Source: Yonghaparkia sp. Root332 (lineage in GTDB: Bacteria > Actinomycetota > Actinomycetes > Actinomycetales > Microbacteriaceae). Taken from it: a DNA stretch of 64,000 nt. How positions within the stretch are numbered: the first letter of the stretch is position 1; each line of letters begins with the position of its first letter. The DNA lies in contig NZ_LMCX01000001.1 of NCBI RefSeq assembly GCF_001425665.1, forward strand, positions 1,051,651 to 1,115,650. Direction: 5' to 3'. Position numbers and translations under genes: made by a program. Shown here one piece after another: positions 28,927-32,754 of this stretch. The notes under the pieces were generated by a model. It saw only the letters and a program-made list of their open reading frames with translations, was not told the DNA's origin and did no database searches.

Positions 28927-28943
28927 GCTGTGGACGACACGCC

Positions 28944-28989
28944 CACTACATGTGGGGTGTGCGCATTGTCAGTGCCCCGATATATAGTG
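28944..28989. promoter_or_regulatory. Paired NrdR boxes
   Basis: CACTACATGTGGGG (28944-28957) and CCCGATATATAGTG (28976-28989) match 10 and 12 of 14 positions of CACTATATATAGTG. They start 32 bp apart, close to three helical turns, as NrdR sites usually do. The second overlaps the likely -10 element. Confidence 0.75.
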
Positions 28990-29128
28990 GCGGAACCGCC
29001 GGACCGGAGCATCGCTCGGTGGCCCCCGATCGGGGGTCGGAGCCCTCGCCGACAGGCGATAACCACGCCGATTCGGGCGAGAGAGAACCGCAGAGCCGCG
29101 CCGCTGGCGCGAAGAGGAGAAGAGCCAC

Positions 29129-31603
29129 GTGAGCAGCATCACGGTCGTCAAGCGCGACGGGACCCGCGAGCCCTACGACGCCAACAAGATCAACCTGGCG
29201 ATCGAGAGCGCCGCCGAGGGCCTCGACCCCAGCATCACGTGGGTCACCCAGATCGCGAGCGAGCTCGAGCTCACGCTCTTCGACGGCATCACGACGCAGC
29301 AGCTCGACGAGGCCGTCATCCAGGTCGCCCTGCAGAACATCAAGGACGACCCGGCGTTCGACATCGTCGCCGCGCGACTCCTCCTCAAGACCATCTACAA
29401 GCGCGTGCTCGGCGACTACTCCTCCGCCGACGAGCTGCGCGGCCTGCACCGGGAGCACTTCGCCGCCTACGTCCGCCGCGGCGTCGACGAGGTCCTCCTC
29501 GACTCGCGCTTCACCGAGCTCTTCGACCTCGAGAAGCTCGCCGCGGCCCTCGAGCCCGCGAACGACGAGCTGCTGAAGTACATCGGCGTCGTCACGCTCA
29601 ACAACCGCTACGGCATCAAGGCCCGCAACGGCGAGCCGCTCGAGGTCCCGCAGTACTTCTGGATGCGCGTCGCCATGGGCCTGTCGCTCAACGAGGCCGA
29701 CCCGACGAGCCACGCCATCGCCTTCTACTCGAAGATGTCGACGCTCGAGTACCTCGCCGCCGGCTCGACCCTCGTCAACGCCGGCACGAGCTACCCGCAG
29801 CTGTCGAACTGCTTCGTCATGGAGATGCAGGACGACATCGAGCACATCGCCAAGAGCGTGCGCGACGTCATGTGGCTCACGAAGGGCACCGGCGGTATCG
29901 GCCTCTCGGTCACGAAGCTCCGCGCCCAGGGCTCGCCCATCCGCTCCAACAACACGACCTCGACCGGGCCGATCCCCTTCATGCACACGATCGACTCGGT
30001 GCTGCGCGCGGTCAGCCGCGGCGGCAAGAAGTTCGGCGCCCTGTGCTTCTACATGGAGAACTGGCACATGGACTTCCCTGAGTTCCTGGACCTCCGCCAG
30101 AACTCCGGCGACCCTTACCGCCGCACCCGCACGGCCAACACCGCCGTCTGGATCAGCGACGAGTTCATGAAGCGCGTGCAGAACGACGAGGACTGGTACC
30201 TCTTCGACCCGCTCGAGGTCAGCGACCTCAACGAGCTCTACGGCAAGGCCTTCTCCGCCCGGTACGCCGAGTACGTGGCGATGGCCGAGCGCGGCGAGCT
30301 GAAGATGTTCAAGAAGCTCGGGGCGCGCGAGCAGTTCAAGCAGATCCTCATCTCGCTGCAGTCCACGAGCCACCCGTGGCTCACGTGGAAGGACACGATC
30401 AACAACCGGGCGATCAACAACAACACCGGCACGATCCACCTCTCCAACCTCTGCACCGAGATCTGCCTCCCGCAGGACCGCGACAACATCTCCGTCTGCA
30501 ATCTCGCCTCGATCAACCTCTCGCGTCACGTCGAGAACGGCGTCGTCGACTTCGCGAAGATCGCTGAGAGCGCCCGCCTCGCCGTCCGCCAGCTCGACAA
30601 CCTCATCGACATCACCGTCTCGAGCGTCGACGAGGCCGACTTCGCCAACCAGCAGAACCGCGCGATCGGCCTCGGCGTCATGGGGTTCACCGACGTCGTC
30701 GAGAAGCTCGGCTTCTCGTACGACTCGGAGGAGGCCTTCGACCTCATCGACGAGATCATGGAGCACGTCTCGTACGCCGCGATCGACGAGTCGACCGAGC
30801 TCGCGAAGGAGCGCGGCTCGTACGCGAACTTCGAGGGCTCGCGCTGGTCGCAGGGCCTCGTGCCCCTCGACACGATCGACCTCACCGAGGCCGACCGCGG
30901 ACTCGAGGTGCAGGTCAACCGCACGAGCCGTCTCGATTGGGACGCGCTGCGGGCGAAGGTCAGGGGCGGGATGCGCAACGCGACCCTCATGGCCATCGCG
31001 CCCACGGCATCCATTGGCCTCGTCGCCGGCACGACGCCGGGCCTCGACCCCCAGTTCTCGCAGATCTTCAGCCGCTCGACGAGCTCGGGCAAGTTCCTCG
31101 AGGTGAACCGCAACCTCGTGGCGACGCTGCAGGAGCACGGCCTGTGGGAGCGCGTCCGCGAGGACATCCTCCGCAGCCAGGGCGACATCCAGGGCATCGC
31201 GCTCATCCCCGACGAGATCAAGGCGACGTACAAGACGAGCTTCCAGCTCTCGCCGTACGCCTTCCTCGAGGTCGCGGCGCGCGCCCAGAAGTGGATCGAC
31301 CAGGCCATCAGCCGCAACATGTACCTCGAGACGCGCGACGTCGACGAGATGGTCGACATCTACTCGGCCGCGTGGAAGAAGGGCGTGAAGACGACCTACT
31401 ACCTGCACATGAAGCCGCGCCACACCGCTGAGCAGTCGACGGTCAAGGTCAACAAGGCCGAGACGATCAACGCCGGCGGCGGCGCGCCCAAGAAGGGCTT
31501 CGGCGCGGCCGGCGGCTCCGCTGCGCCGGCGGCCGAGCCCGCCGCGGCGGCCCCCGCGCGCAAGGGCTTCGGCTTCGGCGGCGTCGCGAAGGGCGGCGAG
31601 TGA
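29129..31603 (+). CDS. nrdA: Ribonucleoside-diphosphate reductase subunit alpha
   Basis: This 824-residue class I catalytic subunit reduces ribonucleoside diphosphates. An ATP-cone (about residues 1-95) gives overall activity control. The active-site cysteines are Cys228 and Cys457 (redox pair) and Cys442 (thiyl radical, in SNLCTEIC). The radical-transfer tyrosines are Tyr757 and Tyr758. After these the chain is an Ala/Gly/Pro/Lys-rich tail with no cysteine, so the usual C-terminal reducing CxxC is missing. That motif appears instead in the overlapping small ORF at 31603. GAGGAGA precedes the GTG at 29129. Confidence 0.93.
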   Translation: MSSITVVKRDGTREPYDANKINLAIESAAEGLDPSITWVTQIASELELTLFDGITTQQLDEAVIQVALQNIKDDPAFDIVAARLLLKTIYKRVLGDYSSADELRGLHREHFAAYVRRGVDEVLLDSRFTELFDLEKLAAALEPANDELLKYIGVVTLNNRYGIKARNGEPLEVPQYFWMRVAMGLSLNEADPTSHAIAFYSKMSTLEYLAAGSTLVNAGTSYPQLSNCFVMEMQDDIEHIAKSVRDVMWLTKGTGGIGLSVTKLRAQGSPIRSNNTTSTGPIPFMHTIDSVLRAVSRGGKKFGALCFYMENWHMDFPEFLDLRQNSGDPYRRTRTANTAVWISDEFMKRVQNDEDWYLFDPLEVSDLNELYGKAFSARYAEYVAMAERGELKMFKKLGAREQFKQILISLQSTSHPWLTWKDTINNRAINNNTGTIHLSNLCTEICLPQDRDNISVCNLASINLSRHVENGVVDFAKIAESARLAVRQLDNLIDITVSSVDEADFANQQNRAIGLGVMGFTDVVEKLGFSYDSEEAFDLIDEIMEHVSYAAIDESTELAKERGSYANFEGSRWSQGLVPLDTIDLTEADRGLEVQVNRTSRLDWDALRAKVRGGMRNATLMAIAPTASIGLVAGTTPGLDPQFSQIFSRSTSSGKFLEVNRNLVATLQEHGLWERVREDILRSQGDIQGIALIPDEIKATYKTSFQLSPYAFLEVAARAQKWIDQAISRNMYLETRDVDEMVDIYSAAWKKGVKTTYYLHMKPRHTAEQSTVKVNKAETINAGGGAPKKGFGAAGGSAAPAAEPAAAAPARKGFGFGGVAKGGE

Positions 31604-31695
31604 TGGACCCCCGCGACTCCACCGTCGACACCGTCGGCGGCTACTACGTCCCGACCGATCCGATGGACGACCTGCACTGCGAGAGCTGCCAGTAG
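31603..31695 (+). CDS. 30-residue ORF with C-terminal CxxC, between nrdA and nrdB
   Basis: The ATG overlaps the nrdA stop by one base (TGATG), so translation would be coupled by re-initiation. The peptide begins MDPRDSTVDTVGGYY and ends DDLHCESCQ. CxxC near the end is what class I NrdA proteins carry as the swinging tail that re-reduces the active site, and this NrdA has none. Its frame is -1 to nrdA and is also open across the end of nrdA. It may be a separate reducing peptide, a tail joined by frameshifting, or the result of an indel. It is followed by nrdB after 75 bp. Confidence 0.6.
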   Translation: MDPRDSTVDTVGGYYVPTDPMDDLHCESCQ

Positions 31696-31770: not shown

Positions 31771-32754
31771 ATGGGAATTCTCGGCACCGGCATCCAAGAG
31801 GGCCTGCTGCTCAAGCCCGTCACGTACAAGTGGGCGATGGATCTCTACGACCAGGCCGTCGCCAACACCTGGTTCCCCAACGAGGTGCAGCTCGGCGAGG
31901 ACATCGCCGACTTCAAGAAGATGACGGACGAGGAGCGCCACGCGATCACGTTCCTCATGAGCTACTTCAACCCGAACGAGCTGCTCGTCAACAAGGCGCT
32001 CGCGTTCGGCGTCTACCCCTACGTCAAGGCTCCCGAGGCGCACCTCTACCTCGCGAAGCAGATGTGGGAGGAGGCCAACCACTGCATGAGCTTCGAGTAC
32101 GTGCTCGAGACCTTCCCGATCGACCGCGCCGCGGCCTACGACAGCCACATCGACGTGCCGTCGATGGCGCGCAAGGAGGAGTTCGAGGTCAAGTTCATCC
32201 GCCGCATGACGGAGGACACGCTCGACATCACGACGACCGAGGGCAAGCAGGACTTCATCCGCAACCTCGTCGCGTACAACGTGATCCTCGAGGGCATCTG
32301 GTTCTACTCGGGCTTCATGGTCGCCCTGTCGTTCCGCCAGCGGAACCTGCTGCGCAACTTCGGCTCGCTCGTCGACTGGATCGTGCGCGACGAGAGCCTG
32401 CACCTGAAGTTCGGCATCAACCTCATCCTCACGGTGCTGGAGGAGAACCCCGACCTGCAGACGCCGGAGTTCGCCGCCGAGATCAAGCAGATGATCCTCG
32501 ACGCCGTCGAGATGGAGTCGGCGTACAACCACGACCTGCTTCCCAACGGCATCCTCGGCCTCAACGCCAACTACATCAACCAGTACGTCAAGTACCTGGC
32601 CGACCGCCGCCTCGAGGAGCTCGGCTTCGAGCCCGAGTACAACGTGTCGAACCCGGCGAAGTGGATGGCGACGGCGAACGACACCCTGCAGCTCGTCAAC
32701 TTCTTCGAGTCGACGAACACGTCGTACGAGGTCAACGCGAAGACCTCGGCCTAG
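31771..32754 (+). CDS. nrdB: Ribonucleoside-diphosphate reductase subunit beta, class Ic-like
   Basis: This 327-residue ferritin-fold radical subunit has putative metal ligands Glu70, Glu101, His104, Glu174, Glu208 and His211. The spacings (31 between the first two, 34 between Glu174 and Glu208) equal those of Chlamydia R2. The position of the radical tyrosine (His + 4) is Phe108, and the first ligand is Glu rather than Asp. Both are marks of the class Ic Mn/Fe enzyme, which needs no tyrosyl radical. A C-terminal Tyr (NTSYEVN) could relay to NrdA. AGAAAGAACGA precedes the ATG. Confidence 0.92.
   Translation: MGILGTGIQEGLLLKPVTYKWAMDLYDQAVANTWFPNEVQLGEDIADFKKMTDEERHAITFLMSYFNPNELLVNKALAFGVYPYVKAPEAHLYLAKQMWEEANHCMSFEYVLETFPIDRAAAYDSHIDVPSMARKEEFEVKFIRRMTEDTLDITTTEGKQDFIRNLVAYNVILEGIWFYSGFMVALSFRQRNLLRNFGSLVDWIVRDESLHLKFGINLILTVLEENPDLQTPEFAAEIKQMILDAVEMESAYNHDLLPNGILGLNANYINQYVKYLADRRLEELGFEPEYNVSNPAKWMATANDTLQLVNFFESTNTSYEVNAKTSA

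Follow-up and report, generated by a model that had tools for sequence, protein, structure and literature searches.

Ribonucleotide reductase (RNR) is an essential enzyme, and class I RNRs normally carry their reducing tail on the catalytic chain itself. In these enzymes the dithiol of the tethered tail reduces the active site and is afterwards re-reduced by redoxins. Turnover of class I RNRs has been described as oxidising an active-site dithiol, which is re-reduced by a C-terminal cysteine pair that redoxins reduce in turn (PMC5704485). A C-terminal CXXC has been reported for 1737 of 2022 class I sequences (PMC9531940). The nearest precedent for a separation of the two functions is the split class II RNR of Pseudomonas aeruginosa, in which the barrel and the reducing cysteine pair reside on separate chains, NrdJa and NrdJb, and dithiol exchange is assigned to NrdJb (PMC4520616). 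A class I NrdA made as two polypeptides, which form an active enzyme, is known from phage Aeh1 (PMC2988022). Here we describe a 64,000-nucleotide stretch of DNA from Yonghaparkia sp. Root332 (the window; contig NZ_LMCX01000001.1), in which the class I catalytic subunit NrdA ends without its CxxC tail and a very short open reading frame (ORF) directly behind nrdA encodes such a tail. From sequence comparison we consider it highly probable (about 0.88) that the reducing tail has been split off and acts in trans as a micropeptide. Searches of open PubMed Central, judged by their listings, brought up no paper on a detached tail peptide of a class I enzyme.

A class I NrdA separated from its reducing tail

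In the window, nrdA occupies positions 29129-31603 on the plus strand, starts with GTG, stops with TGA at 31601-31603 and encodes 824 amino acids. The product reaches 1627.6 bits with the class I model NF005101 / PRK06539, whose curated cut-off is 988, and contains the ATP cone (PF03477), the all-alpha domain (PF00317) and the barrel (PF02867). Its only cysteines are residues 228, 306, 442, 446 and 457, so that none follows the tyrosines at 757 and 758, as the first-pass annotation of this DNA had remarked, and the chain ends without the CxxC that class I NrdA carries. Residues 228, 442 and 457 align with cysteines of 5im3, the nearest solved structure by sequence; we take these three to be the active-site cysteines and YY757-758 to be the C-terminal tyrosine pair. 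The same annotation had pointed to a coupled ORF of 30 codons in the -1 frame ending in HCESCQ, which is indeed present. It spans 31603-31695 on the plus strand (30 codons plus stop, frame -1 relative to nrdA) and encodes MDPRDSTVDTVGGYYVPTDPMDDLHCESCQ, which ends in DDLHCESCQ with cysteine codons at 31678-31680 and 31687-31689. Its ATG (31603-31605) has its A in common with the nrdA stop, giving TGATG at 31601-31605, a layout typical of translational coupling. The 30-residue chain has no match in Pfam or NCBIfam, and the PHROG family phrog_23645 (56 positions, function unassigned) matches its residues 2-29 weakly, with an E-value of 1.8e-4.

Three explanations had been left side by side in the first-pass annotation, namely a separate coupled peptide, frameshifting and an indel, and comparison with relatives bears on all of them. 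Seen locally, an ORF in the -1 frame is most simply read as the result of a one-base change, and an indel, a pseudogene or an assembly error could in principle have split one gene in the Root332 genome. Against this, the tail peptide was matched in 24 of 24 congeners, with a best E-value of 3.3e-7 or lower in each, and the same separation recurs in 41 genera with starts at the nrdA stop. The comparison refutes a base-call error or indel, which can practically be dismissed. The window NrdA is 97% identical to that of the nearest named relative, Microcella alkalica (Microbacteriaceae).

For the wider comparison, 249 genomes from 85 genera of the Microbacteriaceae, a family that lives in soil and water, were surveyed with a tail profile and an NrdA C-terminal query. 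The tail profile matches 114 genomes and the NrdA query 111. After removal of two weak NrdA matches (G130 and G191), 109 genomes in 41 genera remain; a raw tally of 42 had included one genus with these weak matches only. The tail peptide was found in 109 of the 109 genomes with NrdA and in 5 of the 140 without (Fisher p 2e-65, phylogeny not corrected, genome counts not being independent events). Among these five, G139, G151 and G209 (85, 77 and 94% complete) yielded neither NrdA nor NrdE, and the weak matches G159 and G178 carry class Ib NrdE. At least two tails are present in 99 of the 109 genomes, with a maximum of six, as counted from matches at E <= 0.05. A class Ib NrdE scores above its cut-off in 131 of the 249 genomes, about half of the family, and the split NrdA is present in 109; when 130 of the 131 NrdE genomes were compared, only G205 was found to have NrdA as well. 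A cysteine pair elsewhere in the NrdA tails of relatives had been named beforehand as an observation that would speak against a detached tail. Cysteines after the tyrosine pair are missing from 108 of the 109 survey loci and from all 80 loci of a named set, which partly overlaps the survey and has an adjacent tail in 78 cases. As every surveyed genome with an NrdA of this kind also encodes a separate tail, the peptide most likely acts in trans.

The arrangement behind nrdA bears on frameshifting. According to this alternative, programmed -1 frameshifting at the nrdA stop would yield a full-length NrdA with tail, and the separate ORF would be only apparent. A first pattern located adjacent tails in 97 of 109 genomes, and five further, divergent ones were found later (102 of 109 in total). 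The frame is -1 in 83 of the 97, as frameshifting would predict, but eight tails lie in frame past a stop and six are in the +1 frame. In 75 of the 97, the earliest ATG or GTG listed for the tail shares bases with the nrdA stop, and slippery heptamers in frame occur within the last 30 nucleotides before the stop in just 6 of 109 nrdA genes. One survey locus reaches a contig edge. In six genomes (G054, G092, G161, G175, G214 and G261) no tail lies beside nrdA, nrdB comes next and the tail is encoded elsewhere; in the 0.9 Mb genome of G054 the sole tail match is about 35 kb from nrdA. In these six genomes the tail could only be supplied in trans. Free-standing copies with their own ribosome sites, and in the Root332 genome a promoter-like site, also argue against frameshifting, which is very improbable. 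Of the three explanations, the separate coupled peptide is thus the one that the family sequences support.

Outside the family the tail is found in its fused state. Orthologous NrdA proteins encoded at 20 loci from other families of the order, each scoring 328 bits or more, carry it on the same chain in 20 of 20 cases, for example as ...CPVDPMERLQCESCQ, ...CPVDPQERLQCEACQ and VVGGVACPVDPMEALQCESCQ, mostly behind a low-complexity linker. All 20 end in CP-x-DP-(M/Q)-xx-L-x-C-(E/D)-(S/A)-CQ, an end of the same kind as the detached peptide. The alignment of relatives suggested earlier thus gives separate tails across the family and fused ones beyond it. Among more distant NrdA loci, eight of nine have a fused CxxC end and the ninth runs off its contig. 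Phylum-wide, among 396 genomes with few Microbacteriaceae, a search for the free-standing peptide found it only in its own genome; the four matches were this genome, a fused NrdA tail in G746 and two chance partial matches (G798 and G808), which presumably are succinate dehydrogenase iron-sulfur subunits. A single fission in the ancestor of the NrdA-bearing Microbacteriaceae is the likeliest history. All 20 fused tails (L189-L208) have an extra cysteine right before PxDP (CPVDPM and similar). The detached peptides mostly have valine there (VPVDPM), and the ORF of Pseudanabaena phage Pan2 has cysteine.

The NrdA end itself has a conserved feature. Within the final 35 residues, 107 of 109 NrdA proteins of the family carry the motif [KR][KR]GF[GA], behind a linker that is of low complexity and variable; in the window it is RKGFGFGG (31559-31582, plus strand). 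It is a candidate docking site or anchor for the peptide, and its presence in one fused relative means that conservation is no proof of such a role.

Free-standing, plasmid and virus-borne tail genes

The genome of Yonghaparkia sp. Root332 (2.63 Mb, 99.99% complete) encodes two tail peptides and a single NrdA-like RNR match. A second RNR as owner of the additional tail was considered and rejected on the basis of this single match. A class Ib RNR was rejected as well, the one match (E 2.5e-64) lying within the range of matches below the cut-off. The second tail gene (locus L032, G000:C1:315286-315366, minus strand, from a peptide search of the genome) encodes MDNDNETVGGYAVPVDPMDMLQCESCQ and stands alone amid unrelated neighbours. 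This free-standing 27-mer gave no match with PHROG phrog_23645. AGGAGG precedes its ATG, and upstream lies a sigma-70-like promoter (10/12), the -10 element of which, TATAGT, is located inside an NrdR-box-like site (box 2), with a second such site further upstream. A terminator scan found no site at this gene; a GC-rich inverted repeat is visible by eye and is not claimed as one.

A similar pair of NrdR-box-like sites precedes nrdA in the window, with site 1 (CCACTACATGTGGGGT) at 28943-28958 and site 2 (CCCCGATATATAGTGG) at 28975-28990, both on the plus strand and with starts 32 nucleotides apart. Allowing 0-3 mismatches, the double-box pattern has one match genome-wide, in a scan that used the spacing of the nrdA pair alone and not the one-base-longer spacing of the free-standing gene. 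Scoring relied on a 16-bp NrdR consensus. A peptide pattern was used to select 58 main-type free-standing copies, all non-redundant, from the collected loci. Paired NrdR-box-like sites lie within 200 nucleotides of 58 of 58, with starts 33 nucleotides apart in 51, related promoters among them not being independent; an equal box score was reached by 1 of 1160 first-order shuffles (0.09%). GGAGG is found up to 20 nucleotides from the ATG in 53 of the 58. The spacer between the 16-bp boxes is 17 bp at the 33-nucleotide distance of the free-standing copies and 16 bp at nrdA. Natural spacers of 15-16 bp have been reported for three species, and spacers of 14-17 bp were bound by all NrdRs tested (PMC12051234). 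Two boxes at a permitted spacing are thus present at nrdA and at all 58 main-type copies, and an nrdR gene was found in the Root332 genome. NrdR would bind the predicted sites and repress the genes, which would place enzyme and peptide in the same regulon.

Tail genes are also found on mobile elements. Four distinct phages were matched at E-values of 0.02 to 0.2. In the Clavibacter phages CN1A and CMP1 and the Pontimonas phage phiPsal1, tails of 22-30 residues lie in unannotated ORFs, and in Pseudanabaena phage Pan2 a related ORF of 26 residues overlaps an annotated hypothetical gene. The tail is also encoded by 19 plasmid records of Clavibacter, Leifsonia and Gryllotalpicola, three of which were examined closely. 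One Leifsonia plasmid tail of 33 residues (L301 4983-5084) is annotated as ribonucleotide-diphosphate reductase subunit beta (WP_223361114.1). In IMG/VR, 203 stretches of viral contigs encode the tail peptide; 80 of these were retrieved, a few of them near-duplicates, and the motif is present in 80 of 80, of which 79 have a start codon (ATG or GTG) 20 to 57 codons ahead of the stop. A search for the RNR large-subunit domain gave no match in 7 of 7 phage and plasmid records and in 30 of 30 viral records, some of which are fragments. A phage contig of 58.9 kb (L348 2940-4072) carries nrdB with a tail close behind and again no large-subunit domain; its nrdB product is 81% identical to that of the window (324 residues). 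Another viral record shares an identical stretch of 5,852 bases with the Microcella genome region that contains the divergent tail copy L037, which indicates that a prophage carries this copy.

The genome G151 encodes a fusion of the tail to an NrdH-like domain that lacks its own CxxC (L410 1267-1563; NF007657, E 1.4e-9, below cut-off). In G164 and G151 the tail forms the C-terminus of small phage proteins of unassigned function that resemble phrog_1178 (L409 1498-1779 and L417 1498-1776, both minus strand). The assembly of G151 is poor, with 77% completeness and 6% contamination.

It is conceivable that the free-standing and phage copies have nothing to do with RNR, serving as a redox signal or a metal-binding peptide, and that only the copy adjoining nrdA serves the enzyme. 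The unrelated neighbours of the Root332 copy would fit this, as would three divergent extra copies without NrdR-like pairs. The paired boxes at 58 of 58 main-type copies tell against it, as do the six genomes in which the only tails found lie away from nrdA and a core shared with the adjacent copy. In addition, the 130 NrdE genomes yielded only the two weak tails of G159 and G178 and that of G205, which has both enzymes. An unrelated role is therefore quite unlikely.

A proposed micro-redoxin and its significance

If the reducing tail acts in trans, its history and function might be as follows. In the ancestor of the NrdA-bearing Microbacteriaceae, a cut in the disordered linker of NrdA would have turned the last residues, Y-x-VP-x-DPMD-x-L-x-C-x-x-C-Q, into a micropeptide some 20 to 40 residues long. 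One copy would usually have stayed behind nrdA, where its translation would be coupled to the nrdA stop. Another, elsewhere in the genome, would have a strong ribosome site of its own, and paired NrdR-box-like sites would overlap its promoter. The peptide would bind NrdA, and its dithiol would reduce the active-site disulfide after each turnover; thioredoxin, glutaredoxin or an NrdH-like redoxin would afterwards restore the oxidised peptide to its dithiol form. An untethered peptide would need a sufficient concentration, which could explain the multiple copies, the strong signals and the NrdR control. Carriage by phages and plasmids without an RNR large subunit would be explained if the peptide raised deoxynucleotide (dNTP) synthesis by the host enzyme. 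Taken further, the peptide may be a diffusible micro-redoxin of some 20 to 40 residues, the dose of which sets the dNTP supply, which NrdR controls independently of the enzyme, and which serves phages and plasmids as a minimal auxiliary gene to speed up host RNR. We regard this extended proposal as slightly better than an even bet.

A different function at the same enzyme has also been considered, in which the peptide binds NrdA as a regulator, competing with redoxins or inhibiting their access, while direct reduction of the active site is left to the redoxins themselves. Dithiothreitol alone gives some turnover of other RNRs that lack C-terminal cysteines (PMC4520616), and the NrdR-box-like sites of the main free-standing genes would suit a regulator too. 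Against it, 20 of 20 relatives beyond the family carry a tail of the same kind on the NrdA chain itself, and both cysteines are retained in 12 chosen peptides. Moreover, a phage would presumably gain little from a peptide that inhibits dNTP synthesis. A regulator of this kind is quite unlikely.

Several observations weigh against a trans-acting reducing tail or narrow its basis. In the one exceptional survey locus (L184), the NrdA frame continues beyond the usual end and contains a cysteine, and in L341, one of the 80 viral loci, no ATG or GTG start was found. The phage E-values given above are weak, and the assignment is based on the motif, on its terminal position in a short ORF and on the host. 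The divergent extra Microcella copies L037, L039 and L040 have no convincing NrdR-like pair, and they fell outside the peptide pattern by which the 58 copies were selected. The dependence among related promoters and the reliance of the box scores on a 16-bp consensus also count here. A pN/pS ratio (nonsynonymous to synonymous polymorphism) of 0.24 was biased by the selection by peptide pattern and was not used. An AlphaFold model of NrdA made with 25 aligned sequences had a mean pLDDT (predicted local distance difference test) of 47, too poor to be kept. Finally, direct reduction of RNR active sites by non-physiological thiols is possible (PMC4520616), so that the peptide need not be indispensable.

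The split is widespread, being kept in 41 genera, among them that of the 0.9 Mb genome whose single copy does not adjoin nrdA. If the trans-acting tail is confirmed, the tail step could be titrated directly, by binding, mutating or dosing the peptide, without altering the enzyme. It would point to a regulated and possibly rate-limiting role of the tail, and split tails could explain some of the class I sequences without CxxC in large surveys. Such very short genes are easily overlooked by annotation, and the tail peptide may rank among the smallest auxiliary metabolic genes of phages. As a micro-redoxin, it would be one of the smallest gene-encoded electron carriers.

The gene for the radical-generating subunit, nrdB, follows the tail ORF (31771-32754, plus strand, 327 amino acids). 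Its product has phenylalanine where most class I subunits carry the radical tyrosine, and the closest solved sequence is 1syy, which we take to be the class Ic R2 protein of Chlamydia. This suggests that the RNR of the window is tyrosine-free, possibly of the manganese/iron type.

Comparison with known split and rewired reductases

The NrdJa/NrdJb pair resembles the present case in having the reducing cysteines on a second chain. It belongs to class II and uses vitamin B12, whereas the RNR of the window is class I, with NrdJ models below cut-off and nrdB following. NrdJb is a folded chain with a zinc-finger domain, whereas the second chain here has 30 residues and no domain match. In the sections consulted, the report on this enzyme mentions no multiple copies, NrdR boxes or phage carriage for NrdJb (PMC4520616). 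In phage Aeh1, the break in NrdA was caused by the homing endonuclease gene mobE, inserted in a functionally critical region (PMC2988022). In the window, by contrast, nothing lies at the break, where the genes overlap in TGATG, and only the flexible tail is detached. A split RNR is also mentioned for Nostoc, where the likeness is limited to an RNR in pieces (PMC5987646). In Facklamia ignava, a glutaredoxin is fused to NrdB (PMC6187632); the electron supply is rewired there too, but a reductase is added in cis. Another counterpart is the ordinary CxxC tail of class I RNRs, which has the same motif and presumably the same redox role as the peptide described here, but which in these Microbacteriaceae has genes of its own, usually more than one per genome.

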